From a virus: a DNA stretch of 21,482 bases. This document shows positions 332-21,482 of the stretch, piece after piece (position 1 is the stretch's first letter; the number at the start of each line of letters is the position of its first letter). The notes beneath the pieces are model-generated. The model saw only the letters and a list, made by a program, of their open reading frames with translations, ran no database searches and was not told the origin of the DNA. The stretch covers positions 1 through 21,482 of the IMG/VR virus record IMGVR_UViG_3300022707_002328, one strand, 5' to 3'. The position numbers and the translations under genes are program-made.

Positions 332-1905
332 AATTTGCTGCTGATCCATTATCAATACTCATATTATCGGTGATTTTGGTGTTATTACTATCAATGTCGT
401 TATTTGGTTTCGTGCAAAATGCTTTTGCCTCACATAAAGCTGGACATGAAGGCCCAGCAGAAGATCTTACAGTTGTGTTGAACGAGAATGTGAGTATTAC
501 TGATATAGTAACAACATTTCATGATTCCCAACCGCAAGCCTTTGAAATTTCACTTGTTGAGACTATGGAGATTAATGATTTAGTCGATTCTTCGACTTCC
601 CATAACATTTCATTATTTGAAGTAGTCTTAGCAAGCGATTCATTTATTTCATCAACTGATTTTAAAATCAGCTTTACAGAACAAGTGAACATAATAGACC
701 AGGAAGACACAAAATCTACATTTTTTGTAGATATTGTAGAAACAATAAATATTAATGATTTAGTAACATCTTCTATTTTTACCCTACCTCAAACCTTTGC
801 AATCTCACTCACCGAAACTGTAAATATGATAGACACCATAACAACTTCACTTTTTACACTACCACAAGCTTTTGCAATTTCATTAGATGAGGGTATAGAC
901 ATTATAGATGGAGTTGAATCTTCAACATTTACAGTGCCACAGACATTTGTAATAGGACTTAGTGAGAATGTAGAAGTTGGAGATATAATAATATTAGTAT
1001 CTGAAGTCCCACCATCAACAAATTTCACAAAGTTCTTACTAGAACAAATTAATGTTAATGATTCTGTGTTAGTAGCTACTTCTGGTCCTACTTCTGATCC
1101 GAATAACTTCTTCATTAAGATGACTGAACTAGTAATAGTCTCTGATATTATAGAGGGAATCACCCCAACAAAAATAATAATAGTAGCTAAAATCGATAAT
1201 GGTAGGCCAAAACTTGATCCAGCACCAGAAATAGTAAAATTCTCAATTAATGGTACAACATATAATGATCTACCATTTCATAAAGTAGTCAATGATGAAT
1301 TCTTTATAGGAACACCCATTAATTTCGCTTTTGAAATATTAGAGAATAGTGGAGCAAAACATGTTAAAATGATTCAGTTGGCTTTAGGATTACCAGTAGA
1401 TGATTATATTTCTCAAGCTGACACTAGAATAATTCTCTATTATTCTGGAACTACCAATAGAAGTGAATCTATAATTCTTGATAAAAATGATTCAATAGAA
1501 AATGTCACAACAAGCATAGTCATAGGTGATAAATTAACTTATGTGAATTTTACTTTAACACCAACAAAAGCAATGGAACATAAGAAATTAGGACTCCAAG
1601 TTACAGACGATCGTGGAAATGGAAAACAATTCTATTTGCAAGGTATGGGTATTATAGATCCTTCGCCACCAGAGTTTGATAAAATAACATTAGAACCAGA
1701 AAAATGTAAAGTTGTAATAAGTTTAAAACGAGATTGGTGTGGCTGGGCTGATTATCTAGAAAATCAAGGTGTTCAAGCTATGAACTATTTGAGATCTATA
1801 GCAACACTAGAGAAAGAATATCATACACATTCGCTTGAAGAGATAATTATAAAGAATCTACATAGTCCGATAGTTAATTATTATCCTTGGGAGCATGGAC
1901 AATGA
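328..1905 (+). CDS. Secreted or membrane-anchored repeat protein (525 aa), thaumarchaeal cell-surface type
   Basis: An N-terminal hydrophobic segment (about residues 8-28) followed by QNAFA-SHK looks like a signal peptide with cleavage near residue 35. Residues ~49-275 hold about ten degenerate repeats of 20-27 residues with the core L-x-E-x-(V/I)-x-(I/V)-x-D, e.g. LTETVNMIDTI, LDEGIDIIDGV and LSENVEVGDII, probably beta-rich. Residues ~280-445 are a non-repetitive beta-rich domain, and the C-terminal ~80 residues contain three tryptophans and two cysteines. Similar repeats occur in predicted surface proteins of ammonia-oxidising archaea. The chosen TTG start at 328 overlaps the previous stop and has GGTGAG upstream. 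A virus could use such a protein on the virion for adhesion, to remodel the S-layer, or to exclude superinfection; the sequence does not decide between these. Confidence 0.7.
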   Translation: MKFAADPLSILILSVILVLLLSMSLFGFVQNAFASHKAGHEGPAEDLTVVLNENVSITDIVTTFHDSQPQAFEISLVETMEINDLVDSSTSHNISLFEVVLASDSFISSTDFKISFTEQVNIIDQEDTKSTFFVDIVETININDLVTSSIFTLPQTFAISLTETVNMIDTITTSLFTLPQAFAISLDEGIDIIDGVESSTFTVPQTFVIGLSENVEVGDIIILVSEVPPSTNFTKFLLEQINVNDSVLVATSGPTSDPNNFFIKMTELVIVSDIIEGITPTKIIIVAKIDNGRPKLDPAPEIVKFSINGTTYNDLPFHKVVNDEFFIGTPINFAFEILENSGAKHVKMIQLALGLPVDDYISQADTRIILYYSGTTNRSESIILDKNDSIENVTTSIVIGDKLTYVNFTLTPTKAMEHKKLGLQVTDDRGNGKQFYLQGMGIIDPSPPEFDKITLEPEKCKVVISLKRDWCGWADYLENQGVQAMNYLRSIATLEKEYHTHSLEEIIIKNLHSPIVNYYPWEHGQ

Positions 1906-2060
1906 CACACTTACTTTCAAACCTACTACCACAATGGTTTACAGATTATAATCTTGTCTGGTATTTTGCAGATAAAATTTCTTATGATGAATTACTCATG
2001 GCATCTGATTGGTTAATTAATAATCTAATGAAAACCGTTCATGTTACGGGGTCCGCCTAA
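1902..2060 (+). CDS. W-motif small protein (52 aa), paralogue 1
   Basis: The start ATG 1902 overlaps the stop of the 525-aa gene (ATGA), and the stop at 2058-2060 overlaps the next ATG (TAATG). The product consists almost entirely of one motif, LPQWFTDYNLVWYFADKIS followed by YDELLMASDWLINN. It matches, with gaps, the unit P-x-W-(I/F)-x-N-N-x-x-W-W-x-x-x-x-I-x-x-x-x-F-x-x-x-I-x-x-L-I that is repeated in many thaumarchaeal secreted proteins. Two more copies lie at 8141-8356 and 8356-8529. Here the unit stands alone without a signal peptide. The motif is usually found outside the cell or next to membrane anchors, but its function is unknown. Confidence 0.7.
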   Translation: MTHLLSNLLPQWFTDYNLVWYFADKISYDELLMASDWLINNLMKTVHVTGSA

Positions 2061-4283: not shown

Positions 4284-4507
4284 TGGTTGGCATTACTGCC
4301 TCTGATTACGCATCTGAGTATAAAAAATTCCAAGCGAAACGAAAGACAAGAATGGATCAAACAAGATACATGACAAAAATAAGGATCCCAACCCAAACGA
4401 AAACAAAGAAACAATATTGTGGTAACTGCCTAAAACAGTTAGAAGTAGGTGAGATGCCATGCAAACAATGTGGGGTAACAACAAAACCACGGAGTAGAAG
4501 AAAATGA
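4283..4507 (+). CDS. Zinc-ribbon protein (74 aa)
   Basis: The start ATG 4283 overlaps the preceding stop (TAATG), and the end overlaps ATG 4504. The N-terminal ~45 residues are basic and probably helical. Residues ~46-63 form a zinc ribbon, CGNCLKQLEVGEMPCKQCG, with four Cys spaced CxxC...CxxC, and the tail is basic (TTKPRSRRK). The layout is that of a small nucleic-acid-binding protein. Between two methyltransferase genes it might serve as a DNA-targeting partner; that is inference. Confidence 0.7.
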   Translation: MVGITASDYASEYKKFQAKRKTRMDQTRYMTKIRIPTQTKTKKQYCGNCLKQLEVGEMPCKQCGVTTKPRSRRK

Positions 4508-4950
4508 GAACTGAATTATCCCTCTCAGATGAATGGGAAACACCAAACGAACTCTATGATTATCTTTGTAATACTTACAAAATCTACCCTGAATTAGATG
4601 TAGCTTGCACATCTGAAAACTGCATTACTGGTAGAATGATACCTATAGATTCATTAGCAGCTGATTGGGATACAGGAGATAAATGTGATGTCTGGTGTAA
4701 TCCACCACATACAAAGACTGAAGAATTTGTAAAGAAAGCATACGAAGAATGGATTAAACACAATATCAACATCATGATGATTTTACCAGCTAATGCAATG
4801 TGTACAAATTATGCTGAAAATTGGATAGAACCATTTGCTAGGTATCATCCTATTAATAGAAGACTGTGTAAATTTTTACACAAAGGAAAGAAAATGGATA
4901 GTTCTCGAAATGGTTATTTCGTAGTTATATGGCGTAAGGTGAATAAATAA
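4504..4950 (+). CDS. Phage-type DNA N6-adenine methyltransferase (Dam family)
   Basis: The 148-aa product matches the compact phage adenine methyltransferase family. It opens with SDEWETPNELYDYL (residues 8-21, the 'W-x-T-P' signature), has ELDVAC (30-35), then CDVWCNPPH at 61-69 as the catalytic (D/N)PP(Y/H) motif, followed by KTEEFVKKAYEEW. Further hydrophobic strands (IMMILPANAM) and a terminal strand with YFVVIWRKV complete the fold. The length is normal for the family. It transfers a methyl group from SAM to adenine in DNA, either to protect the viral genome from host restriction or as the modifying half of a viral pair with the next gene. Confidence 0.8.
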   Translation: MRTELSLSDEWETPNELYDYLCNTYKIYPELDVACTSENCITGRMIPIDSLAADWDTGDKCDVWCNPPHTKTEEFVKKAYEEWIKHNINIMMILPANAMCTNYAENWIEPFARYHPINRRLCKFLHKGKKMDSSRNGYFVVIWRKVNK

Positions 4951-5520: not shown

Positions 5521-5528
5521 TTCACACT

Positions 5529-5545
5529 ATAGTAAGACCATGAGG
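5529..5545 (+). repeat. Short dispersed repeat ATAGTAAGACCATGAGG, copy 1
   Basis: This 17-nt sequence is identical to bases 5723-5739. The core TAGTAAGACCAT is found again at 5880-5891, and a weaker match (ATAGTAAGAT) lies at 5901-5910. In copy 1 it sits in the spacer before the 60-aa gene; in copies 2 and 3 it lies across the end of a gene in different reading frames. Confidence 0.7.
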
Positions 5546-5554
5546 AGATAAGAA

Positions 5555-5737
5555 ATGGATGAAATAGAAGAAACCACCAAAGTACTACAAAAAGAATATG
5601 ATAAAATCAAGTATATGTTGCCTTGGAATAGCTCCATTTATGAGGAAGTAGCCAAACAAATCATGCTATATGGTAATATCATAGACATGGACAAAATCCA
5701 AGAAATCTTCGATAATAAGATAATAGTAAGACCATGA
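5555..5737 (+). CDS. Hypothetical small acidic helical protein (60 aa)
   Basis: ATG 5555 is preceded by GAGGAGATAAGAA, a good Shine-Dalgarno-like site. The product starts with an acidic coiled-coil-like helix (MDEIEETTKVLQKEYDKIK), then a helix pair up to KIQEIFDNKIIVRP. No family is recognised. The end overlaps the next ATG (ATGA) within the second copy of a 17-nt repeat. Confidence 0.55.
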   Translation: MDEIEETTKVLQKEYDKIKYMLPWNSSIYEEVAKQIMLYGNIIDMDKIQEIFDNKIIVRP

Positions 5738-5739
5738 GG
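5723..5739 (+). repeat. Short dispersed repeat, copy 2
   Basis: Identical over 17 nt to bases 5529-5545. It includes the ATGA junction between the 60-aa and 56-aa genes. Since the copies are read in different frames, a protein motif cannot explain the repetition. Confidence 0.7.
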
Positions 5740-5904
5740 GAAAAGGATATGAATGAAAGAAAATGGACACTCGAAGAAATTCGCGGTTTCTTACAATGGG
5801 ACTATGACCGTAAGAATGACAAACTAGGCACTCCTATGCGTTTTAAAACAGTTAAAGATTTACGTGCATGGTTAGATTCTAGTAAGACCATAGTAGGAGT
5901 ATAG
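5734..5904 (+). CDS. Hypothetical small protein (56 aa)
   Basis: ATG 5734 overlaps the previous stop; an in-frame ATG at 5749 is an alternative. The product has WTLEEIRGFLQWDYDR and KTVKDLRAWLDS, two amphipathic helices with conserved-looking Trp residues joined by a polar loop. This fits a small helical DNA- or protein-binding domain. It is the last gene of the second left-hand operon; the end runs through the third copy of the AGTAAGACCAT repeat. The family is unknown. Confidence 0.5.
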   Translation: MREKDMNERKWTLEEIRGFLQWDYDRKNDKLGTPMRFKTVKDLRAWLDSSKTIVGV

Positions 5905-6021
5905 TAAGATGATTATGGTACTAGTAACTCTAGGCATGGGTTAGGCGTGTGTTTTTCTTACTAGTAGTAGTAACATACGATTCCTTAATACATTTAACCT
6001 AATACCACGTACCCCCCATAT
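5905..6021 (+). promoter_or_regulatory. Intergenic promoter region before the terminase genes
   Basis: This stretch has no convincing gene. It contains a T-rich run (GTTTTTCTT, 5951-5959) that could end the upstream transcript, and a TATA-like TTAATACATTTAACC (5985-5999) centred about 29 nt before ATG 6022. That is compatible with a leaderless or nearly leaderless mRNA. The match to the late-gene motif described elsewhere is only partial. A run of six C (6012-6017) lies close to the start codon. Confidence 0.55.
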
Positions 6022-6318
6022 ATGACAGTTGGTGAGTCTGATACTGAACATTTAGCAGAGTCTATCAAGGGTGTCTTTGATACGCTGTTAGAGAAATTCC
6101 ACGTATTAGAACAAGACGAAAAGGCAAAACTATCTGATTTAGCCAAACTCACATCTGCCATAGGATACATGGCTCAGGTTCATGCAGGTCTAAGAAAGAA
6201 TCTCTACGTAGAGAAAGAGATTAAGGAGATTAGAGAACTAGTAGATAAGATCCCTGCAGAAGTAATAGCAAAAATACATAGTCCTCAAGTGTTGGAGGAT
6301 ACAGTTGCCCTCAGATAA
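6022..6318 (+). CDS. Small terminase subunit candidate (98 aa)
   Basis: The product is almost entirely helical: an acidic N-terminus, then LLEKFHVLEQDEKAKLSDLAKLTSAIGY in two pieces, a conserved-looking IGYMAQVHAGLRK (residues ~47-59), and a coiled-coil-like end with EIKEIRELVDKI. Small terminase subunits are short helical oligomers encoded directly before TerL, and this gene overlaps the TerL start by 14 nt. Such proteins recognise viral DNA and start packaging. No HTH is obvious, so the assignment rests on position, size and helical character. Confidence 0.55.
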   Translation: MTVGESDTEHLAESIKGVFDTLLEKFHVLEQDEKAKLSDLAKLTSAIGYMAQVHAGLRKNLYVEKEIKEIRELVDKIPAEVIAKIHSPQVLEDTVALR

Positions 6319-8131
6319 AGGTAAATATCTTAGGCGTAGTGCTCATGATCTAACCGGTGTAGATAAGGCTCTTGATGATCTATGGCATCTAATTCACCCA
6401 CAAACACAAGTACAATTACCCACCTTACCAACAAATACATTGGATTGGATAGAGAAGGCTCGACCATTAGTAGGTAAAGTAGTAAGAGATTTTAGATGGG
6501 AACCATTCTGGATTCCAGTATATGAGGATAACTATCCTAATATTGTAATTTTAGCAGCTAGACAAACATTCAAGTCTACATTTGGAACTGATAAACTAGC
6601 ATGTTATATGACTTCACACCCAAACTCTGAAGTCACCTATGTTGTAGATAGGGCAGATAGGGCTAATGCTTGGTCCAAACAAAGATACCGAAAAGATACT
6701 TTCATAAAGAATCCAATCTTGAAGCAATTTCTAATCTCAGGAAAGGCCGCAGTGGGAGAAATCAATGGTGAGAACGATGCAGTAACGTATGTCAGAACAG
6801 ATGAGAATGAATATAACAACGTGCAAGGCATGACTAACGAAATGATGTTCTTTGATGAATGCCAATATCAAGAACTACAATTTAGGCGTGAAGCATTGAA
6901 TAGTATGGTACAAACTAAAGGCCAAGCATACTACACAGGCATTGGTGGAGAGAAAGGCTCTGAATGGTATAGGATTTGGAAAGCATCAGATCAAAGAGAA
7001 TGGGTATTTGCTGATAAATATTGGCGTGAGAAACTAAAGTTTGATGAAGCAGGTTATCTAGCTAATGAACACCCAGAGAATATAGTGGCTGGTAGATGGG
7101 TAGCACAAGAACCAAACAATAGAGAATATAGAGGTTATCACATGAGCCAGACAATGTTTGCCAGGATTCCATTAACTATTAATGATGCAATAAATAAATA
7201 CAAGACTAGACCAGATAACTCTATTGAGCATCAGCAAAAATACTCTCCATTATCTATTTATACATCACATACAATCGGAGATTTCTTCAAGGCAGAACGA
7301 AGACCAATTACACCAGAAATGGTTGAAGCTTGTTATGATTACTCAACCTCTCTTTTATCCCCTCAAGAAGTAAGACAACTTAAACACAAATTTGGTAATA
7401 AGGTAATGGTGTATGGTGGAACAGATTGGGGTTCAGGTCCAGCAGCATCTTATACTGTACCATGTATCATGTTATATTGGAAGATAACCAAACGCTATCA
7501 AATAGCCTGGATAGAGAGAATGGATCAAATGAATCCCCTAGATCAAGTACGGTACATTGCTGAACTATTTGGTAAAGAAGGGTACAACGTTGATCTCGCT
7601 GTAGGAGATTATGGTTATGGTGATACTAAAGTAAAAATGATGCAAGATGGTGGAAGGGATTCTAGAGATAATAAATACAAAGGATTAGGTAGAAGACGAT
7701 TCATTGGTTGTAGAACAATAGGCGATGAAACAAAGCCTGAAATGATATACACACAAGAATCAGACGAACATGGCACAGAACTAGGTAAACTACAGATTGA
7801 TAAAACTACGACAATTCAAGGTTTTGTGGATATAGTAGGGAGATATGTAGCAGATCCAGACCACCCTGACAATGAAAAACTAAAGAAGACTGTACTAATG
7901 ATTCCTTATGCTAAAGATTATGAGGTTAGTTTCCTAATGGAGGATATGACGTCTATCACTAGAAAAGACCTGGAAAAGCAGCAAGATGTGAGAATCGAGG
8001 ATCCAAGGCAAAGGGCTAGAAAAGAGTTTAATCATCCACCAGATACAGTAATGGCTATGATATATTGTATTGTAGCATCAAATCAATATGATCCAGACGC
8101 ATTCAAGATTTTACCTATTAAAAAGAGATAA
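6305..8131 (+). CDS. terL: Large terminase subunit (TerL), 608 aa
   Basis: TerL packages viral DNA into the prohead through the portal and cuts the concatemer. The ATPase domain has AARQTFKSTF at residues 84-93, a Walker A variant of the terminase type with Lys90, and MFFDE at 181-185 (Walker B). The nuclease domain has an RNase H-like set of acidic residues: Asp374 in GGTDWGSGPA, Asp435 in VGDYGYGD and Asp580 in FNHPPDTVMA. The length is normal. The start is TTG 6305 inside the small-terminase candidate gene, suggesting coupled translation. The end, KILPIKKR, is repeated with only synonymous changes near 8567-8593. This is the firmest evidence that the window is from a tailed virus. Confidence 0.95.
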   Translation: MPSDKGKYLRRSAHDLTGVDKALDDLWHLIHPQTQVQLPTLPTNTLDWIEKARPLVGKVVRDFRWEPFWIPVYEDNYPNIVILAARQTFKSTFGTDKLACYMTSHPNSEVTYVVDRADRANAWSKQRYRKDTFIKNPILKQFLISGKAAVGEINGENDAVTYVRTDENEYNNVQGMTNEMMFFDECQYQELQFRREALNSMVQTKGQAYYTGIGGEKGSEWYRIWKASDQREWVFADKYWREKLKFDEAGYLANEHPENIVAGRWVAQEPNNREYRGYHMSQTMFARIPLTINDAINKYKTRPDNSIEHQQKYSPLSIYTSHTIGDFFKAERRPITPEMVEACYDYSTSLLSPQEVRQLKHKFGNKVMVYGGTDWGSGPAASYTVPCIMLYWKITKRYQIAWIERMDQMNPLDQVRYIAELFGKEGYNVDLAVGDYGYGDTKVKMMQDGGRDSRDNKYKGLGRRRFIGCRTIGDETKPEMIYTQESDEHGTELGKLQIDKTTTIQGFVDIVGRYVADPDHPDNEKLKKTVLMIPYAKDYEVSFLMEDMTSITRKDLEKQQDVRIEDPRQRARKEFNHPPDTVMAMIYCIVASNQYDPDAFKILPIKKR

Positions 8132-8140
8132 TGTTCTATT

Positions 8141-8356
8141 ATGGTACAACTCTATAGTATTATAGTAGTTGACATACACCATAGTATGCATGGTGAGGGT
8201 CTTTGGGAAATGCTCACAGTATTATTTCCAGAGTGGTTTATGAACAATAATTTTCATTGGTATCTAAATGATAAGATTTCTATTCATGAATTTGTTACTG
8301 CTGGTAATTGGTTAATTAACAACGTTACAAATTATAGATCTGGAATTTTATCCTAA
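8141..8356 (+). CDS. W-motif small protein, paralogue 2 (71 or 56 aa)
   Basis: Two starts are possible, ATG 8141 and ATG 8186. The second aligns with the start of the next paralogue (MHGEGLWEMLTV against MHPPYGFMDLLTV) and is preferred for that reason. The core is FPEWFMNNNFHWYLNDKIS then IHEFVTAGNWLINN, one unit of the thaumarchaeal P-x-W-F...W-Y...I...F...W-L-I motif. It is clearly related to its neighbour at 8356 and more distantly to the ORF at 1902. The function is unknown. Its position between TerL and a second TerL-like tail suggests that it arrived by insertion or local duplication. Confidence 0.7.
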   Translation: MVQLYSIIVVDIHHSMHGEGLWEMLTVLFPEWFMNNNFHWYLNDKISIHEFVTAGNWLINNVTNYRSGILS

Positions 8357-8529
8357 TGCACCCACCTTACGGATTCATGGACTTGCTTACCGTTGCACTG
8401 CCTGAATGGTTCTTTAAAATCAATATACTTGATTGGTATTTTGATGAAAAAATTACCCTTAACGAGCTTTTAGTTGCTGGAAACTGGTTAGTTGATAACG
8501 TCATATTTCCATTGAATACCTCAAGTTAA
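8356..8529 (+). CDS. W-motif small protein, paralogue 3 (57 aa)
   Basis: ATG 8356 overlaps the previous stop as TAATG. The product, with LPEWFFKINILDWYFDEKIT and LNELLVAGNWLVDN, is a tandem paralogue of the preceding gene: most motif positions are the same and the spacing differs by one inserted residue. Like the other copies it consists of a single motif unit with a short N-terminal extension and has no signal peptide. It may act as a pair with its neighbour. Confidence 0.7.
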   Translation: MHPPYGFMDLLTVALPEWFFKINILDWYFDEKITLNELLVAGNWLVDNVIFPLNTSS

Positions 8530-8593
8530 GATAGGATGGTTACATAAAATATATCATTCAACTTATAAGATACTACCTATTAAGAAAAGGTAG
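8528..8593 (+). pseudogene. Remnant repeating the 3' end of terL
   Basis: The frame leading to TAG 8591-8593 ends with the same eight residues and stop as TerL, KILPIKKR, preceded by Tyr where TerL has Phe. Aligning 8567-8595 with 8105-8133 gives 23 identical bases of 29, and every difference within the codons is synonymous. Further upstream the resemblance fades. It looks like the decayed end of a second terL copy, or the old end of terL left behind after a cassette was inserted. The downstream gene starts with GTG 8593 at this stop. A chance match of eight residues plus stop right beside terL is unlikely. Confidence 0.55.
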
Positions 8594-8721
8594 TGAAAAC
8601 ACAACTCATAGAGCGAGATAAAATATTAAAAGAAACCGAAAAATTAATGAGAAAATATAATATCACTCCAGACAGAATACTTGCTGACAGAAGTACACTG
8701 AAATGGTTGTTCCTAAAATGA
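8593..8721 (+). CDS. Hypothetical small basic protein (42 aa)
   Basis: GTG 8593 shares a base with the preceding TAG, and the stop TGA 8719-8721 overlaps ATG 8718. The product is a helical, charged peptide (QLIERDKILKETEKLMRKYN) ending in RILADRSTLKWLFLK. No family is recognised; the tight junctions at both ends are the evidence for translation. Confidence 0.4.
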   Translation: MKTQLIERDKILKETEKLMRKYNITPDRILADRSTLKWLFLK

Positions 8722-8822
8722 ACGCAGAAATGGTATGGAAACATCAAGCTAGCCGATCAATACAGGAATTAGAAAACGTATGTATAAAAGGCAGATGTGT
8801 TATCTGTAAGAGGCTGAAATGA
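8718..8822 (+). CDS. Tiny Cys-containing protein (34 aa)
   Basis: ATG 8718 and TGA 8820-8822 both take part in ATGA overlaps with their neighbours. Its C-terminal half has VCIKGRCVICKR, with C-x5-C-x2-C, a possible incomplete metal site that could be completed by His9 or by dimerisation. It opens with MNAEMV, comparable to MNAKTMEV in the 9083 gene. Confidence 0.4.
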   Translation: MNAEMVWKHQASRSIQELENVCIKGRCVICKRLK

Positions 8823-8902
8823 TTAAAGCGAGTTTAAAAGACATATACGAATATCAAGAAATGTATTATAGGTATAAGAAAGAACAAGAGAAAAAGGGAT
8901 GA
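8819..8902 (+). CDS. Tiny charged peptide (27 aa)
   Basis: The ORF starts at ATG 8819 inside the upstream stop and encodes a Tyr/Lys/Glu-rich helix (YEYQEMYYRYKKEQEKKG). After it, a four-codon frame (8899-8913) links to the next ATG at 8910. It may be a real peptide or only a spacer that keeps ribosomes coupled; the support is weak. Confidence 0.3.
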   Translation: MIKASLKDIYEYQEMYYRYKKEQEKKG

Positions 8903-8909
8903 AAAATAG

Positions 8910-9086
8910 ATGAGTTGTAAATGCACATTAAACCATTGTTGTCAAGACCTTTGTAATTCTCCATGTGTTTATATAAAAGATTATGAAAACCATTCAAACG
9001 GTTTGGTGGGTGTTTATGGTTACGATATGAATGATGAGTCAGAGTTTACATTTTGTCCTTATTGTGGTATGAGTTGGATGAAATGA
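8910..9086 (+). CDS. Cys-rich zinc-binding protein (58 aa)
   Basis: The product has a Cys-dense N-terminal part (MSCKCTLNHCCQDLCNSPC) and a C-terminal knuckle FCPYCGMSW. Together these provide enough ligands for one or two zinc ions. ATG 8910 follows a four-codon frame and the stop overlaps ATG 9083. The paired-knuckle pattern supports a real protein; the function is unknown. Confidence 0.6.
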   Translation: MSCKCTLNHCCQDLCNSPCVYIKDYENHSNGLVGVYGYDMNDESEFTFCPYCGMSWMK

Positions 9087-9283
9087 ACGCAAAAACAATG
9101 GAGGTACCCATGTTAATTACAAATTATACTAGTTATCCATTTACTACCTGTCCTAGTTGTTTGGTTCAACCTTCTCGTAATCGAGTAATAGCCAAAGCTT
9201 GCTATGTGAAGGATATGCCATATTCTAATTTGATGGTAATGACTTGTTTAAAATGTGGAGAAACATTCAAGGTGTGTGATTAA
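9083..9283 (+). CDS. Zinc-ribbon protein (66 or 57 aa)
   Basis: A zinc ribbon is formed by TTCPSCLVQ and MTCLKCGETF, with ~30 residues between the two CxxC pairs. ATG 9083 overlaps the preceding stop (ATGA), but ATG 9110 has a strong Shine-Dalgarno match GGAGGT at 9100-9105 with good spacing and gives a 57-aa protein starting just before the ribbon. Both starts may be used. Extending to the further in-frame ATG at 9053 would overlap the previous gene by 34 bases and is less likely. Confidence 0.65.
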   Translation: MNAKTMEVPMLITNYTSYPFTTCPSCLVQPSRNRVIAKACYVKDMPYSNLMVMTCLKCGETFKVCD

Positions 9284-9487
9284 ATGGTTGATCATAATAT
9301 TACAGAGAAGATGAGAATTTACACATTTCCAAATAATGAAACTATAATCATTGAAGAAGTTAGAGCGTTAAGAATTAGTGCTAGTGGCAATCATAGAATT
9401 AAAACTAAGAATGGTCGTTTACATATAATTCCTAAAGGCTGGCTACACATCGAAATTGAATCTGAAGTAGGTAAGTGGGAGCTATAA
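9284..9487 (+). CDS. Hypothetical beta-rich protein (67 aa)
   Basis: The start follows the previous TAA directly, and the stop is followed directly by ATG 9488. The sequence alternates hydrophobic and polar residues in at least four strands (MRIYTFP, ETIIIEEVRALRIS, HRIKTKNGRLHIIP, WLHIEIESE), suggesting a small beta-barrel or sandwich. There are no Cys, unlike the genes around it. I do not recognise the family. Confidence 0.6.
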   Translation: MVDHNITEKMRIYTFPNNETIIIEEVRALRISASGNHRIKTKNGRLHIIPKGWLHIEIESEVGKWEL

Positions 9488-9577
9488 ATGATATCTCAAC
9501 AATTATGTCATTTACATTGTAGAATGGTTACTAAAATAAATAACTTCAAAATTATATGGGATTTGTTTCATCAATGA
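9488..9577 (+). CDS. Tiny protein of the MTS-type array (29 aa)
   Basis: It starts ATGATATCTCAACAATTATG, nearly the same as the start of the ORF at 9836 (ATGACATCTCAACAATCATG), and ends in an ATGA overlap with the next gene. The product has QLCHLHCRMV, a C-x-x-x-x-C/His cluster, but no second knuckle. It may be a shortened member of the zinc-ribbon array that follows. Confidence 0.4.
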   Translation: MISQQLCHLHCRMVTKINNFKIIWDLFHQ

Positions 9578-9696
9578 CATCTCCTTGTCCTTCATGTGGA
9601 TATGATGGGGGTAAATGGGGACACCAAAAACAAATTAATCCAGACAATCCTTTCAAATGGATTTGTGGCTCTTGTAGTCAGGTGTTTGGTAAATGA
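9574..9696 (+). CDS. Minimal zinc-ribbon protein (40 aa)
   Basis: The product is little more than one zinc ribbon: MTSPCPSCGYDGGKW, a 16-residue loop, then WICGSCSQVFGK. Both CxxC pairs are intact and are followed by Gly or Ser as in classical zinc ribbons. It starts at ATG 9574 in the previous stop, and its own stop overlaps ATG 9693. It begins with M-T-S like its neighbours. Confidence 0.65.
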   Translation: MTSPCPSCGYDGGKWGHQKQINPDNPFKWICGSCSQVFGK

Positions 9697-9839
9697 CATC
9701 ATCTACCAAATGTCGTTGGTGTGGGTATAGAATAACTGAATTCTTAGATCCCGTTGTTTTATGTCATAAATGTAATAGATTTACCTTATCTAATGACCAT
9801 CCAAAAACACCTAATATTTTGAGGCGTTGGTTCAAATGA
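9693..9839 (+). CDS. Minimal zinc-ribbon protein (48 aa)
   Basis: MTSSTKCRWCGYR and VLCHKCNRFTLS supply two CxxC pairs separated by a 15-residue loop, followed by a basic tail (LRRWFK). It is linked to the genes on both sides by ATGA overlaps. The pattern is that of a single zinc ribbon with a short nucleic-acid-binding tail. Confidence 0.65.
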   Translation: MTSSTKCRWCGYRITEFLDPVVLCHKCNRFTLSNDHPKTPNILRRWFK

Positions 9840-9937
9840 CATCTCAACAATCATGTTGCTGTATTAGTTGTGAGAATGGTTGTCAAAGAAAGCCAGAGGG
9901 CTTAAATTTATTTTGTAAGGAGTGTTTGACTCATTGA
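9836..9937 (+). CDS. Minimal Cys-rich protein (33 aa)
   Basis: The product contains SCCCISCENGC and LFCKECLTH, seven Cys in 33 residues with CxxC pairs on both sides of a 10-residue loop. The start ATGACATCTCAACAATCATG resembles that at 9488. It ends with a TTGA overlap onto the next frame. Confidence 0.55.
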   Translation: MTSQQSCCCISCENGCQRKPEGLNLFCKECLTH

Positions 9938-10035
9938 CATCTAACTCATATTGCAATTGTAACTTTCCAAATATCCCTTATTCTATGGAAAGTATGATTT
10001 GTCAAAATTGTGGGAAAGAGGTTAAACGACATTGA
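9934..10035 (+). CDS. Minimal zinc-ribbon protein, TTG start (33 aa)
   Basis: TTG 9934 overlaps the previous stop (TTGA) and is followed by ACATCT, so the protein begins M-T-S like the preceding members. YCNCNF and ICQNCGKEV form the two knuckles, and the tail is basic (KRH). The shared beginning and the Cys pairs support the TTG start. Confidence 0.5.
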   Translation: MTSNSYCNCNFPNIPYSMESMICQNCGKEVKRH

Positions 10036-10109
10036 ATACTAAAAATCTTTTAGAAAATTACACGCTAGGAAAAAGACCTATTACTCAAATAGAATGGGAG
10101 TGGACATAA
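10032..10109 (+). CDS. Possible tiny peptide (25 aa)
   Basis: A TTG at 10032 in the previous stop opens a 25-residue frame (NTKNLLENYTLGKRPITQ...) that ends one base before GTG 10111. It has no Cys and no recognisable motif. It may only provide translational coupling to the next gene. Confidence 0.3.
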   Translation: MNTKNLLENYTLGKRPITQIEWEWT

Positions 10110-10110
10110 C

Positions 10111-10536
10111 GTGAAAATTTGTAATTACATTCCTGTAAAGCATGATAAACGGAAAAAAGTAACTCCCACACAAATTCAGAAAATCAAAGAATTACGTCAA
10201 AAAGGTTATTCTTACATAGCCATAGCAAAAAGGATGCAACGTCATTGGACTACGATTTTTAAGTACATGAACCCTGAATATGCAAAAAGAGTCAAATTAC
10301 TTCAGAACAAAATCAACAAGAAGCGTTTCAAGACTGATAAAAAATATAGAGAAAAACAAATAGCTCAACGTAATAAGCGAAATCTTAAACGTATCCAAGA
10401 AGAGCCTAAATACAAAGACTACGTACGTTGTGTTACACGAAGATGGCGTCTAAAACACAAAAAGTATTATGCAAATTACCGTAAGAATAAAAGAAAACAA
10501 ACTCTAATTCGAAATAAATTTAAACCTGTGCTCTAA
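10111..10536 (+). CDS. Very basic helix-turn-helix protein (141 aa)
   Basis: GTG 10111 follows the preceding frame by one base and has GGGAGTGG upstream. Residues ~18-55 contain an HTH of the resolvase/HTH_23 style: TQIQKIKELRQKGYSYIAIA then KRMQRHWTTIFKYM. The remaining ~85 residues are Lys/Arg-rich helices (KKYREKQIAQRNKRNLKRIQ and YANYRKNKRKQ). There are no catalytic acidic or His motifs of an HNH or GIY-YIG nuclease, so it is more likely a DNA-binding or DNA-compacting protein, or the DNA-binding part of a degraded homing enzyme. It ends the insert-type region before the portal. Confidence 0.6.
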   Translation: MKICNYIPVKHDKRKKVTPTQIQKIKELRQKGYSYIAIAKRMQRHWTTIFKYMNPEYAKRVKLLQNKINKKRFKTDKKYREKQIAQRNKRNLKRIQEEPKYKDYVRCVTRRWRLKHKKYYANYRKNKRKQTLIRNKFKPVL

Positions 10537-10586: not shown

Positions 10587-10820
10587 GTGGCAAAGTGTCT
10601 AAATTGTGGTTCTGGTAAAGGGGGAAGATCCAGGAAATCAAAGAATTGGCGTTCATGGCAATTATGCTATGAATGTGCAAAAGAACTCCATCCTAAAGAA
10701 TACGAGAACGAACACCCACATGGCATAGGTGGAAGAGGTTGTGCAGCAGCAAAACATGAGGATTTCTTAGTTGTTAATCCAAATCAAGAAGTTATACTCA
10801 AACACACAAGCTTCATTTAG
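10587..10820 (+). CDS. Zinc-ribbon protein (77 aa)
   Basis: The product begins MAKCLNCGSGKGGRSRKSK and continues QLCYECAKELHP, giving two CxxC pairs separated by ~20 basic residues, a typical nucleic-acid-binding zinc ribbon. A His-rich stretch (ENEHPHGIGGRGC) follows, and the C-terminus is LVVNPNQEVILKHTSFI. The start is GTG 10587, with a TATA-like element upstream. It is larger than the array members at 9574-10035 but of the same general kind. Confidence 0.7.
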   Translation: MAKCLNCGSGKGGRSRKSKNWRSWQLCYECAKELHPKEYENEHPHGIGGRGCAAAKHEDFLVVNPNQEVILKHTSFI

Positions 10821-10935: not shown

Positions 10936-12585
10936 ATGGGCTTTCTAACACGCCTGAAGAATGGAATAGCCAAATTAGCTGTTAATCAGCCAATTATGCC
11001 GCAACAGTCTAAAGGTGGCTCATTTAGATTAAATGAAGCTAGATCCTTGTTTGAGACAACAGGACTATCTCAACCTGTATGGGGTCCAGAGATTTCCACA
11101 GTAGGTGCTTATTCCAGGGAAGGTTATACATCAAAAACATTTGATACACCAGCTATTAATTTTAGAAAACAAGCTGAAACATTACAAATAGACGAAGATG
11201 TTCAATTAGCAATTAACCATTTATCTGCAAAGGTTACCGGTGGTGAACATTATGTAAAAGCAGCAACAGATGATATTAAGGATTATTTTGAGAAATTTAC
11301 TACAGATTTAAGATTTGATACTTTTGACACAGAAATGGTTAAAGAGTTATTATGGTATGGTAACTCATTTTATAAACCAAGATTAGGTATTGCGAATGTT
11401 CAACGCTTTGATGATTTAATGCACATACCAATATCATCTGCTGTCAGAATATGGTGGGATAGACAAAGAATCCCATACAAATATGAATTTAGAGGAACAG
11501 AGTATCAAGGCTATCATAACCCAAGTGAGATAATACACTTCAAATGGAATCCTATAGACGCATCAGCCTTTGGTACAGGATTCGGTGTAACATTAACTGC
11601 TCCTAGATTCTTTGAAGAAGAAATAGCTAATGAGGTAATAAAACAAAGATCCTTAGGCTCACCAATTGATAGAAAATATGCAACACAAAGAAGAATGCAG
11701 AAATTAGAATCACGATATATCACTAGAAATATTTACATGGCTGAAGGGGATGTAGAAGAAAGAGGCCAACTACAAAGCCAGATTCAAAGTCTTGATGATG
11801 GTGAAGATTTTGTAGCTAGTCAGAAACTAGATGTAAAGGAACTTGGTTCTACTCAAAGAAACTTTAATGCAGAACAATTCTCAGATATTACTTCAGGACC
11901 AATACTAAAAGGACTAAACGATTTCCATGGTAAACAAGGTTCTAGCGAATCACATCAATACGCAAACGCTAAAACATCCGCAGTGTTGGATGAAATAGGA
12001 CTATCAGCATTTCCACCAGCAGTAATGGAACAATTACATGAATATATATTCAAACCTTGGTATATGTCAAATCCAATGCCAGATCCAGCAACAGGTGGTA
12101 TAACCTTCATTCCTTGGGAAAAGACAAGATTTGAGATAAACTTTGGTGAAGTAGAAAAGAAAGACATTCCAATAGAGGAAATGATTAAACTAATAGATTT
12201 ATTCATGCAATCACCAATACCCAAAGATCCAAACATGATATACGACTTATTCGAGAATGCTGGCTTACCAATCACAAAGGATCAGCGAGTAGCATTAGAA
12301 CAACAATACAATGATCCAATGGGTCAGATGGCTATGAATCAGATTGGAGCACAACAGCAACCCTATGCGGATATTGGTGGTGGACCTGTAGTTCCTAACG
12401 CACAGCCAATGGGCGTTCCTAACTTCAATAACCAAGTAATGGGTAATCCTCCAAATGATATGCCAATATATGATAGACAGGCAGTAGATCTTAGAGGAAC
12501 ACAAAAACAACCATTCGTACCTAATGTAGCTTCTGCTCAACCTTCAAAGAAATCACAAGATTGGAATATAGGAGAATACGAATAA
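10936..12585 (+). CDS. Portal protein (549 aa)
   Basis: The portal is the dodecameric ring at one head vertex through which DNA is packaged and the tail attached. Portal-like features include DEDVQLAINHLSAKVTGG (residues 87-104, the helix and turn after the N-terminal arm), KELLWYGNSFYKPRLG (136-151) and SEIIHFKWNPIDASAFGTG (197-215), which matches the 'I-x-H-F-x-x-N-x-x-x-x-x-x-G' region of HK97/SPP1-type portals. The C-terminal ~95 residues are rich in Gln, Asn and Pro, as in many portals. Length and order after TerL fit. A large insert of small genes separates it from TerL. Transcription probably starts at or next to the ATG from the motif at 10901. Confidence 0.85.
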   Translation: MGFLTRLKNGIAKLAVNQPIMPQQSKGGSFRLNEARSLFETTGLSQPVWGPEISTVGAYSREGYTSKTFDTPAINFRKQAETLQIDEDVQLAINHLSAKVTGGEHYVKAATDDIKDYFEKFTTDLRFDTFDTEMVKELLWYGNSFYKPRLGIANVQRFDDLMHIPISSAVRIWWDRQRIPYKYEFRGTEYQGYHNPSEIIHFKWNPIDASAFGTGFGVTLTAPRFFEEEIANEVIKQRSLGSPIDRKYATQRRMQKLESRYITRNIYMAEGDVEERGQLQSQIQSLDDGEDFVASQKLDVKELGSTQRNFNAEQFSDITSGPILKGLNDFHGKQGSSESHQYANAKTSAVLDEIGLSAFPPAVMEQLHEYIFKPWYMSNPMPDPATGGITFIPWEKTRFEINFGEVEKKDIPIEEMIKLIDLFMQSPIPKDPNMIYDLFENAGLPITKDQRVALEQQYNDPMGQMAMNQIGAQQQPYADIGGGPVVPNAQPMGVPNFNNQVMGNPPNDMPIYDRQAVDLRGTQKQPFVPNVASAQPSKKSQDWNIGEYE

Positions 12586-18615: not shown

Positions 18616-21482
18616 ATGTCTTCTACTGACAATCTGAGGATACCTTGGACCACGACTAAACCCCAAAATCCCCTCTTTGACGTATCAGCAGATGAGTTAG
18701 CAAATCCCCTAAACATTATAAATATTTCTGGTGATGTCAATTGGCGAACCAATAAAATCATCAATTTAAAAGATCCTACTCTAGATCAGGATGCAGCCAC
18801 TAAAAAGTTCGTTGATGACCATACTTGGGTTAAAGCTGATGTTACAGACACTCCTTGGTTATTAGGAACCGAAGTAACAGGAGCTAGTACAGATTTAACA
18901 GATACTGCTATTATAGCAAGAAGCACTAATAATTTAGGATTTTTTGCAGCCACAACATCTTCACAGTTAGCAGGAGTAATTTCAGATGAAACAGGATCAG
19001 GACTACTTGTCTTTGGTACATCACCAACGATTGTAACTCCTACTATAGCTAGTTTTATCAACGCTACTCATAGTCACCTAAACGCAATTGGTGGAGGGTT
19101 AATCACTGAAGCTTCAATATCTGACTTAGGAACTTTAGCAGCTTTAAAATCTGACAAACTTAGTGTGTTTGCTGCTACTACTTCAGGAGAACTAGCTGGA
19201 GTGATATCTGATGAAACAGGATCGGGATTATTAGTATTTGGAACCTCCCCAACAATTATTACTCCAACAATAGCATCTTTCACAAACGCAACTCATGATC
19301 ACTCTAATGCTGCCGGTGGTGATAATCTCACTAATACAGCACTAACATCTGGTGTCTTTGCTGCAATTACTGGATTAGGTTTACAATCACAAATACTTAA
19401 TATGAATACTCAAAAGATTTCGAATGTTGTAGATCCAACACTTGATCAAGATGCAGCAACAAAGAACTACGTTGATTCTATTGCAATCAATGGCGTAGTA
19501 TGGAAGGCATCCGCTAGAGTTGCAACTACAGGAGACATCACTCTATCAGGAGAGCAAACCATTGATGGTGTTCTTACTAGTACAGATAGGGTTTTAGTCA
19601 AAAATCAATCAACCCCTGCTAATAATGGTGTTTATGTTAGTGCTGCTGGTGCATGGACTCGTTCTACTGATACAGATACAGGTGCAGAAATTTTACAAAT
19701 GGCTATTTTTGTTGAAGAAGGTACAGTAAATACTGACCAGGGATTTGTTCTAACCACAAACGCACCTATTACGATTGGTGTTACAGATCTTTCTTATACA
19801 CAATTTACAGGTCTTGGTCAGATAACTGCTGGTGCTGGATTAACAAAAACAGGTAATACAATAGATGTTATTGGAACTACTAATAGAATATTAGTTAATG
19901 CAGATGATGTTGATATTTCTCCAAACTATGTAGGTCAGACTTCAATCACTACTCTTGGAACGATAGGATCAGGAACATGGGAAGGTGGTGTAATTAGTGA
20001 TACTTTCCTTTCAGACACATGGAATGCTAACAAAGACGCTGCTGGAAATCAACTCCGAAACGTATTATTTCCAAATGGCAATCCTCCAGATTTTCAAGAT
20101 AGTGCTTTGAGGATTTTTAATCCTGCTGCGTCTTTCCGTTATAAAATCATTGCTAGTGCAATCGGGGGAGATAGAATAACTACACTTCCATTATTATTAT
20201 CAAACGATGAATTTACATTCAATAATCATATAGCAACTTTAGTTGGAAAAACTCTAACAACTCCAACAATCGCAAGTTTTGTTAATGCAACTCACAACCA
20301 TGAAAATGCTGTTGGTGGTGGAACTTTAGGTGCTGCTGCTTTACCTTCGACTATAGTATTCAATAATCAGGCCAATACTTACTCTGGTGGTGGTAAGCAA
20401 GACTTTGGTAATGCAGATATAAGAGTTGGAACTGGAAAAGTAGAATTCCTGACTAATATGTTCATCCAGAGAGATTCGGATGATATGCAACTAAATGTTG
20501 AAGGTGGTGCAGCGTTTATCTTTAAAGAAGGTGGGACTCCCAGATTCGTAGTAGATTCTGGTGGAATAAATCTTCAAACTCTCAATATTACGAATGTTAA
20601 ATTACTTGAAATAAACAATCCAGCAAACACATTCCAATATATCATTACAGGAGCTGCAATTGGAGCAGATAGGATTTTAACTTTACCTTTACTCACAGGA
20701 CCAGACACGGTAGTTACTGAAGCATTCGGACAGCCTCTAACAAACAAAACAATAGATGGGGATCTCAACACAATTCTAGATATTAACGAAACTCAGATGG
20801 ATGTTTCAGTTGGTGTATCAGGAACCGTTTTAACTAGTAATGGTGTTGGTTCACCACCCACATATCAGGCAACTGCCGGTGGAGCACCATTTGTAGATAC
20901 AACTAGTATTATTGAAGGTAGTGCAGATGCAACAAAAGAATTAAGATTTGAAGTAGATGGTTTTACAACTGCAACAATTAGAGTTATTACACCACCAGAC
21001 AAAGATATTACATTAGTTGGAACAGTTGATAATCTTAGCGTTTTTGCTGCTACTACATCATCACAATTAGCAGGAGTCATAAGTGATGAAACTGGTTCAG
21101 GGTTGTTAGTATTTGGAACATCTCCAACTATTGTAACCCCAACAATCGCTAGTTTTATCAATGCAACCCATACCCATCTAAATGCAATAGGTGGTGGCAC
21201 AATCACTGAAGCAGCAATATCTAATTTGGGAACCTTAGCAGCATTAAAAGCAGATAATCTTAGTGTATTTGCTGCAACAACATCTTCACAACTTGCAGGT
21301 GTTATATCTGACGAGACTGGTTCTGGATTATTAGTTTTTGGTACCTCACCAACTATTGTGACACCTACAATCGCTTCATTTGCTAATGCAACACATAATC
21401 ACCAAAACGCAGCAGGAGGGAATACATTAGTAGCTACTTCTGCTTTAACTGCAACTGGAACTAAAAATTCTACAACTTTTCT
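18616..21482 (+). CDS. Tail-fibre protein, at least 955 aa, continues past the window edge
   Basis: The frame from ATG 18616 stays open for 955 codons to the edge. The N-terminus ends in LKDPTLDQDAATKKFVD, the 'D-P-T-x-x-Q-D-A-A-T-K-x-Y-V-D' motif of phage fibres, repeated as VDPTLDQDAATKNYVD. Next comes a VWKASARVATTGDITLSGEQ domain with DRVLVKNQSTPANNGVYV and GAEILQMAIFVEEGT, widespread in tail fibres. 75-residue repeats starting FAATTS(S/G)(Q/E)LAGVIS begin at 18943, 19168, 21043 and 21268. Each contains LVFGTSPTI, TPTIASF and an N-A-T-H-x-H motif. HxH motifs bind iron along the axis of trimeric fibres such as T4 gp37. Two copies of NPA-x-x-F-x-Y ... DRI-x-TLPLL lie at ~20120-20200 and ~20620-20700. 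It probably forms a trimeric receptor-binding fibre. Confidence 0.85.
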   Translation, partial: MSSTDNLRIPWTTTKPQNPLFDVSADELANPLNIINISGDVNWRTNKIINLKDPTLDQDAATKKFVDDHTWVKADVTDTPWLLGTEVTGASTDLTDTAIIARSTNNLGFFAATTSSQLAGVISDETGSGLLVFGTSPTIVTPTIASFINATHSHLNAIGGGLITEASISDLGTLAALKSDKLSVFAATTSGELAGVISDETGSGLLVFGTSPTIITPTIASFTNATHDHSNAAGGDNLTNTALTSGVFAAITGLGLQSQILNMNTQKISNVVDPTLDQDAATKNYVDSIAINGVVWKASARVATTGDITLSGEQTIDGVLTSTDRVLVKNQSTPANNGVYVSAAGAWTRSTDTDTGAEILQMAIFVEEGTVNTDQGFVLTTNAPITIGVTDLSYTQFTGLGQITAGAGLTKTGNTIDVIGTTNRILVNADDVDISPNYVGQTSITTLGTIGSGTWEGGVISDTFLSDTWNANKDAAGNQLRNVLFPNGNPPDFQDSALRIFNPAASFRYKIIASAIGGDRITTLPLLLSNDEFTFNNHIATLVGKTLTTPTIASFVNATHNHENAVGGGTLGAAALPSTIVFNNQANTYSGGGKQDFGNADIRVGTGKVEFLTNMFIQRDSDDMQLNVEGGAAFIFKEGGTPRFVVDSGGINLQTLNITNVKLLEINNPANTFQYIITGAAIGADRILTLPLLTGPDTVVTEAFGQPLTNKTIDGDLNTILDINETQMDVSVGVSGTVLTSNGVGSPPTYQATAGGAPFVDTTSIIEGSADATKELRFEVDGFTTATIRVITPPDKDITLVGTVDNLSVFAATTSSQLAGVISDETGSGLLVFGTSPTIVTPTIASFINATHTHLNAIGGGTITEAAISNLGTLAALKADNLSVFAATTSSQLAGVISDETGSGLLVFGTSPTIVTPTIASFANATHNHQNAAGGNTLVATSALTATGTKNSTTF
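18943..19392 (+). repeat. Pair of 225-nt coding repeats in the fibre gene, first pair
   Basis: Two units of 75 codons begin at 18943 and 19168 and encode nearly the same sequence over their first ~50 residues (AGVISDETGSGLLVFGTSPT is identical). The second unit diverges after the HxH motif. Confidence 0.75.
21043..21482 (+). repeat. Pair of 225-nt coding repeats in the fibre gene, second pair (cut by the edge)
   Basis: Units begin at 21043 and 21268, again 225 nt apart. The first is almost identical in protein to the unit at 18943 but differs from it at many synonymous codon positions. A partial unit with LTTPTIASFVNATHNHENAV lies at ~20250-20315. Confidence 0.75.

Follow-up and report, generated by a model that had tools for sequence, protein, structure and literature searches.

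About a dozen tiny overlapping genes, roughly half of them of a minimal zinc-binding type, lie in a run between the TerL and portal genes of a tailed virus. The best explanation, to which a probability of about 0.6 is given, is that this array forms the stretch rich in zinc-ribbon genes within a hypervariable accessory block and encodes rapidly exchanged, translationally coupled microproteins that probably act at the virus–host interface. The units of the array would be complete mini-genes of 25–67 codons placed in the packaging/head cluster, between TerL on one side and a conserved C4 anchor gene and the portal on the other.

The array and its genomic setting

The window is the whole virus record of 21,482 bases, in which TerL occupies 6305–8131 and the portal gene 10936–12585. 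It represents a fragment, since the long ORF at its 3′ end continues beyond the record. This ORF (18616–21480) contains repeated stretches (SVFAATTSSQLAGVISDETGSGLLVFGTSPTIVTPTIASF.NATH) and probably encodes a repeat-built tail-fibre protein. A DNA N-6-adenine methyltransferase (Pfam Dam, E 3.5e-17) is encoded at 4504–4950. With regard to the host, two scans of the whole collection of cellular genomes, one with the portal as query and one with a portal alignment, detected no provirus relative, and hence no host assignment through a cellular genome was possible. In the phage collection, no relative of the portal was detected, and the matches of TerL were mostly Bacillus phages (about 23%). The GC content of the window (33–38%) is close to the mean of 36.3% reported for soil viruses of ammonia-oxidising archaea (PMC9859776), which makes an ammonia-oxidising (thaumarchaeal) archaeon a plausible host.

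The array is real and lies far beyond chance expectation. Head-to-tail, very small ORFs of the + strand (at least 25 codons) cover 99.5% of positions 8718–10035, compared with a mean of 49% and a maximum of 82% in 1000 dinucleotide-preserving shuffles of the same region. Four ORFs with two CxxC motifs were observed against a shuffle mean of 0.002, six looser paired-Cys ORFs against 0.016 expected, and six 4-nt overlaps between ORFs of 25 aa or more against 0.29 expected; none of these four values was reached by any of the 1000 shuffles. On the antisense strand of the region, no Cys-pair ORF of such type was found. The codon-usage score ranks the proposed frame as the best of six for nearly all members, the score being weak for 9693 and 9934, where another frame is equal or better. 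Common gene callers use a default minimum of 90 nt, and most of the array ORFs are longer than this.

Eight NTGA stop/start overlaps between co-directed genes occur from 8718 to 10032, an arrangement typical of termination-reinitiation gene pairs: ATGA at 8718, 8819, 9083, 9574, 9693 and 9836, and TTGA at 9934 and 10032. ORFs 9284 and 9488 abut a preceding TAA stop without overlap, and upstream of 8910 there is only a 4-codon ORF. The tight chaining described in the initial annotation is thus borne out by the coverage and the overlaps. Its picture of minimal zinc-ribbon genes, with paired CxxC knuckles in at least six ORFs, needs trimming: the Cys-pair ORFs are non-random and strict paired CxxC motifs are present in four (9083, 9574, 9693 and 9836), but 8910 has one CxxC (CPYC) together with CKC/CC/C, 9934 has CNC and CQNC, and 8718 (a single CVIC), 8819, 9284 and 10032 lack paired CxxC motifs and are not zinc ribbons. 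The features of the region are listed in Table 1.

Table 1. Genes and ORFs of the TerL–portal interval in the window
Position	Strand	Feature	Remarks
8141..8356	+	Small ORF of the PEWF..W..DKIS..E...AGNWLINN type	48% identical to 8356–8529, E 2e-11; belongs to the cargo block that L002 lacks
8356..8529	+	Second PEWF-type ORF	Start overlaps the stop of 8141..8356 by 1 nt; tandem paralogue
8593..8721	+	Small ORF without Cys pairs, first in the overlapping chain	
8718..8822	+	34-aa ORF, single CxxC (CVIC), ATGA overlap	First 15 nt resemble 9083 (14/15)
8819..8902	+	27-aa ORF without Cys, ATGA overlap	
8910..9086	+	58-aa Cys-rich ORF (CKC, CC, C, C, CPYC)	
9083..9283	+	66-aa zinc-ribbon-type ORF (CPSC ... 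CLKC), internal ATG at 9110	
9284..9487	+	67-aa ORF without Cys, abutting both neighbours (TAA/ATG)	
9488..9577	+	29-aa ORF, a degenerate frameshifted copy of 9836	Full-length DNA similarity, reached by 0/3000 codon shuffles
9574..9696	+	40-aa zinc-ribbon-type ORF (CPSC ... CGSC)	Homologue L015:2849–2956, 57–60% aa identity, 4/4 ligand Cys kept
9693..9839	+	48-aa zinc-ribbon-type ORF (CRWC ... CHKC)	
9836..9937	+	33-aa zinc-ribbon-type ORF (CISC ... CKEC, extra Cys)	
9934..10035	+	33-aa Cys-pair ORF (CNC ... CQNC), TTG start	
10032..10109	+	25-aa ORF without Cys, TTGA overlap	
10111..10536	+	HTH protein (HTH_38), basic tail	Pfam E 7.6e-8; tblastn to L051 and L057, E 6e-13 and 3e-10
10587..10820	+	Anchor gene, conserved C4 protein (C..C...NW..WQLC..C)	In 71/82 loci, always beside the portal

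The PEWF...W..DKIS..E...NWLINN pattern marks three small paralogous stretches of the window (1890–2027, 8141–8356 and 8356–8529), of which the last two are tandem ORFs; no such stretch was found in the relatives. The pattern presumably recalls a motif of thaumarchaeal secreted proteins.

A cargo slot and its moving mini-genes

The interval between TerL and the portal is a hypervariable cargo slot. In L002, a relative with 78% identity in TerL and 77% in the portal, TerL is followed by about 50 bp, the C4 protein and then the portal, whereas the window carries an extra 2.4 kb between TerL and the C4 protein, the block 8141–10536 being absent from L002. Among the 70 loci having both genes, the length of the interval varies between 273 bp and 3.4 kb, and the window has the highest number of strict zinc-ribbon ORFs in it (five, anchor included). 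Homologues of the HTH protein in L051 and L057 are located inside the same interval. In L003, a methyltransferase-like ORF (5526–5954), similar-looking to that of the window, also lies within the interval, which thus takes non-zinc cargo too.

The C4 anchor is present in 71 of the 82 non-redundant loci and remains next to the portal also in those with an inverted TerL. TerL is on the strand opposite the portal and anchor in about 15 relatives (L004, L027, L028, L067–L078, L087 and L094), with the cargo interval in between. The anchor, whose motif reads C..C...NW..WQLC..C...HGTGG, has a dN/dS of 0.06–0.10 and is possibly a packaging or head factor. No family match was obtained for it, and the search with its model (pLDDT 67) gave no significant fold match, the top rows being mostly ribosomal proteins.

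In three groups of relatives, the presence or absence of whole mini-genes changes exactly at stop/start seams, the direction of the indels (gain or loss) being unrooted; these gene-exact insertions are hand-checked cases only, the automatic scan being noisy from antisense ORFs. In L015, compared with L016/L017, a 93-bp insertion at the junction of the portal and the next gene is one complete zinc-ribbon ORF (MNECPKCGYDKPIKQINPECPFDWICGSCPEVYNA). In L089, a 66-codon ORF (197 bp, ATGA to ATGA) separates two Cys-pair genes that overlap by ATGA in L088/L093. At another seam, four contents were observed: nothing in L049, one zinc-ribbon ORF in L053, an 82-aa ORF without paired CxxC in L105, and two small ORFs in L040.

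The inserted ORF of L015 is the sole homologue found of any array member; it matches 9574 and is located at a different seam. A concatenated-protein scan of viral contigs gave no relatives of the other members, a scan with the 9574/L015 alignment returned L015 only, and a distant blastn search of phages with the whole block returned none. In halovirus HGTV-1, 9574 gave a weak tblastn match, which was rejected because it falls within a SprT protein and not a mini-gene. Between 9574 and its homologue, pS is 0.33 (on 19 synonymous sites, a small sample), compared with 0.78 for the portals of the two viruses, in which no 35-codon stretch is as low as 0.33 (minimum 0.51). This silent-site divergence, far below that of the portals, points to a horizontal move of 9574 after the two virus lineages separated, and such a move suggests that whole-gene gain contributes at least as much as duplication. 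The initial annotation had named Cys-codon conservation and dN/dS in relatives as checks: 9574 keeps all four ligand Cys in L015, and its dN/dS is about 1, which is compatible with either fast change or weak constraint. In L036 (7386–7508) and L040 (4205–4336), small Cys proteins of one type (CVxC.DEH...C.C.CH) form one similarity cluster at different genome positions and possibly represent a second mobile mini-gene.

Across the clade set (862 kb of relatives, with permutations within loci), adjacent pairs of small Cys-pair genes number 18 against 5.7 expected, a value reached by none of 2000 permutations, and 12 against 3.0 with the strict pattern. Runs of such genes were detected in L088/L093/L089, L051, L080, L048 and L096. 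In L088/L089, homologous tandem zinc-ribbon genes retain all Cys and have dN/dS values of 0.30 and 0.25, from which they are judged to be under purifying selection. Orphans are common: of 180 small Cys-pair ORFs, 80 are without a match in the other loci of the set. Three adjacent paralogous zinc-ribbon genes in L051 (481–1097), belonging to the MACKGICDKYKAKK family that is present in several of these viruses, are a clear tandem duplication.

Origin of the array and role of its products

It was initially proposed that the array grew by duplication, followed by divergence of everything except the start and the metal ligands. The M-T-S start is indeed present in all four ORFs for which it was noted (9574, 9693, 9836 and 9934, the last with TTG), as TGACATCT three times and TGACATCA once. 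CATCT after NTGA was found at only three of 1197 other NTGA junctions of related viruses; TGACATCW is not rare in the window as a whole (6 against 3.0 expected), and it is its placement at four successive array starts that stands out. A different start is shared by 8718 and 9083 (14/15 nt). The near-identical beginning described for 9488 and 9836 was also recovered (91% over the first 23 nt) and extends to similarity over the full length, with a DNA score of 166 against a shuffle mean of 74 (0/3000 shuffles; fitted p 4e-5, 45 pairs compared). The alignment of this pair contains several 1-nt gaps, and the 9488 protein matches 9836 at the start only, the paired ligands being gone, so 9488 reads as a decaying, frameshifted duplicate. 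Duplication is thus supported for one pair, but in this pair the copy lost its frame and its ligands, the opposite of what had been proposed. An exact DNA scan for the 9488/9836 start yielded no relative.

Local multiplication of one ancestral mini-gene, with all but start and ligands changed, is retained as a tentative account of the array. It would explain the 9488/9836 homology and the shared starts just described, and tandem paralogues exist both next to the array (8141/8356) and in L051. However, no other array pair among the 45 compared exceeds shuffles (Cys-preserving for proteins) after correction for pair number, Cys spacings differ among members, non-zinc ORFs are interspersed, and the homologue of 9574 was seen as a single member in another virus and not within the array. 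Common starts with unrelated bodies could be either old duplications or traces of exchange at the seam. As a long shot, the stop/start overlap itself could be the exchange seam, mini-genes moving between viruses or operon positions as ATGA-bounded units by microhomology recombination, with insertions automatically registered for termination-reinitiation and the array being a growing and decaying stack; the unit border would then be ATGA or a common start of slightly greater length, such as AATGACATCT. The shared recombination site of an integron-like cassette array was not found: there are short start-proximal repeats only, not at every junction, and no longer common site.

It is unlikely that the products regulate late transcription of the virus itself or serve as packaging assembly factors. 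The position in the TerL–portal block, beside the HTH protein and the conserved C4 anchor, would suit such a role, as would the DNA binding of small archaeal zinc-finger proteins such as AFV1p06 (mentioned, as cited work, in a passage of PMC7230728), but close relatives retain the packaging genes and lack the array, which is hence not required for packaging, and in relatives mini-genes of a similar kind are also encoded at a distance from TerL. Mostly non-functional turnover, in which short ORFs are carried along, translated or not, and kept briefly, appears improbable. It accords with the dN/dS of 9574, the decay of 9488 and the abundance of orphans; on the other hand, the coverage, the overlaps and the Cys pairs depart strongly from random expectation, the clustering of small Cys-pair genes is non-random, and the tandem zinc-ribbon genes of relatives show signs of purifying selection.

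In the preferred reading, that of an exchanged accessory block at the virus–host interface, the array genes would share a transcript and be translated by termination-reinitiation at their 4-nt overlaps, by analogy with the overlapping genes found to be translationally coupled in tested pairs of Haloferax volcanii and Escherichia coli (PMC6728339). Each four-Cys product would bind one zinc and fold as a minimal ribbon or knuckle. The products would bind host or viral proteins or nucleic acids, with host transcription, translation and defence as the likeliest targets, and such binding would explain rapid turnover and protein change in which little beyond the ligands is kept. By analogy, and from the pattern of rapid gain, loss and exchange, interaction with host macromolecules is the most likely role, with which inhibition of host transcription or defence, the putative role first suggested, is compatible. 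Counted against this reading are the failure of the searches to find relatives of members other than 9574, the dN/dS of 9574, the decayed 9488, the lack of a family or fold match, and the several Haloferax microproteins that do not bind zinc. No library gave a significant, specific family assignment for the array members, and the Cys-pair ORFs reached no curated cut-off in Pfam or NCBIfam, zinc-ribbon matches having E 0.03 or worse. Matches of 9083 to UEV (Pfam E 6e-4, below cut-off) and of 8910 to blaACI (E 0.007, far below cut-off) were regarded as chance matches. The model of 9574 (pLDDT 76, from a 2-sequence alignment) predicts two short strands and a short helix; its fold search gave no significant match, the hits being mostly zinc-binding folds at E 2 or worse (VIA Z at most 2.9).

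Very small genes of archaeal viruses form a large unexplored class. Here, whole mini-genes of about 100–200 bp can be observed to join or quit an operon precisely at gene borders, and one gene of the zinc-ribbon type appears to have crossed virus lineages. These viruses therefore offer a tractable system for how very small viral genes arise, move and persist, and a short list of candidate effectors against little-studied, ecologically important probable hosts.

Comparison with known systems

In thaumarchaeal mobile elements, genes for Zn-ribbon proteins rank among the most frequent (PMC6563490), and the Zn-ribbon arCOG08677 of thaumarchaeal integrated elements may be compared with the array by this description. 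The C(P)XCG microproteins of H. volcanii likewise have fewer than 70 aa and four Cys in two pairs (PMC11241148), whereas no array member has an exact C(P)xCG twice, there being at most one CxxCG and a second pair without Gly; no significant match of the array to the HVO Pfam/NCBIfam models was obtained. Several Haloferax CxxC microproteins do not bind zinc, and structure prediction does not settle zinc binding by the C(P)XCG type (PMC11241148). Lar-like restriction alleviation proteins (PHROG 38103 and 6422) are also small phage proteins with Cys pairs, and their profile match was not significant (E 0.12 for 9083 and 0.46 for 9574).

The closest parallel is provided by haloviruses (Serpecor1 and Hardycor2 of the HF1 group, and Hardycor1), which likewise encode many CxxC proteins of fewer than 100 aa with an unknown role (PMC7230728). 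By the definition of this archaeal class (under 100 aa, at least one CxxC), it includes 9083, 9574, 9693 and 9836 with two motifs each, and 8910, 9934 and 8718 with one. In Hardycor1, three CxxC genes lie in tandem with 4-nt overlaps at 29,114–29,867 (PMC7911831), as was confirmed in the sequence record. Serpecor1 and Hardycor2, in contrast, have no CxxC gene in the 26-kb block starting at terL (PMC7230728), whereas the run of the window sits between TerL and the portal; its members are shorter (33–66 aa) and form a longer run, and they showed no sequence relationship to the halovirus genes. A run of small CxxC genes is thus already known in a halovirus, and what differs here is the TerL–portal position, the length of the run, the smaller size of its genes, and the evidence for gene-exact insertion or loss and for transfer between lineages.
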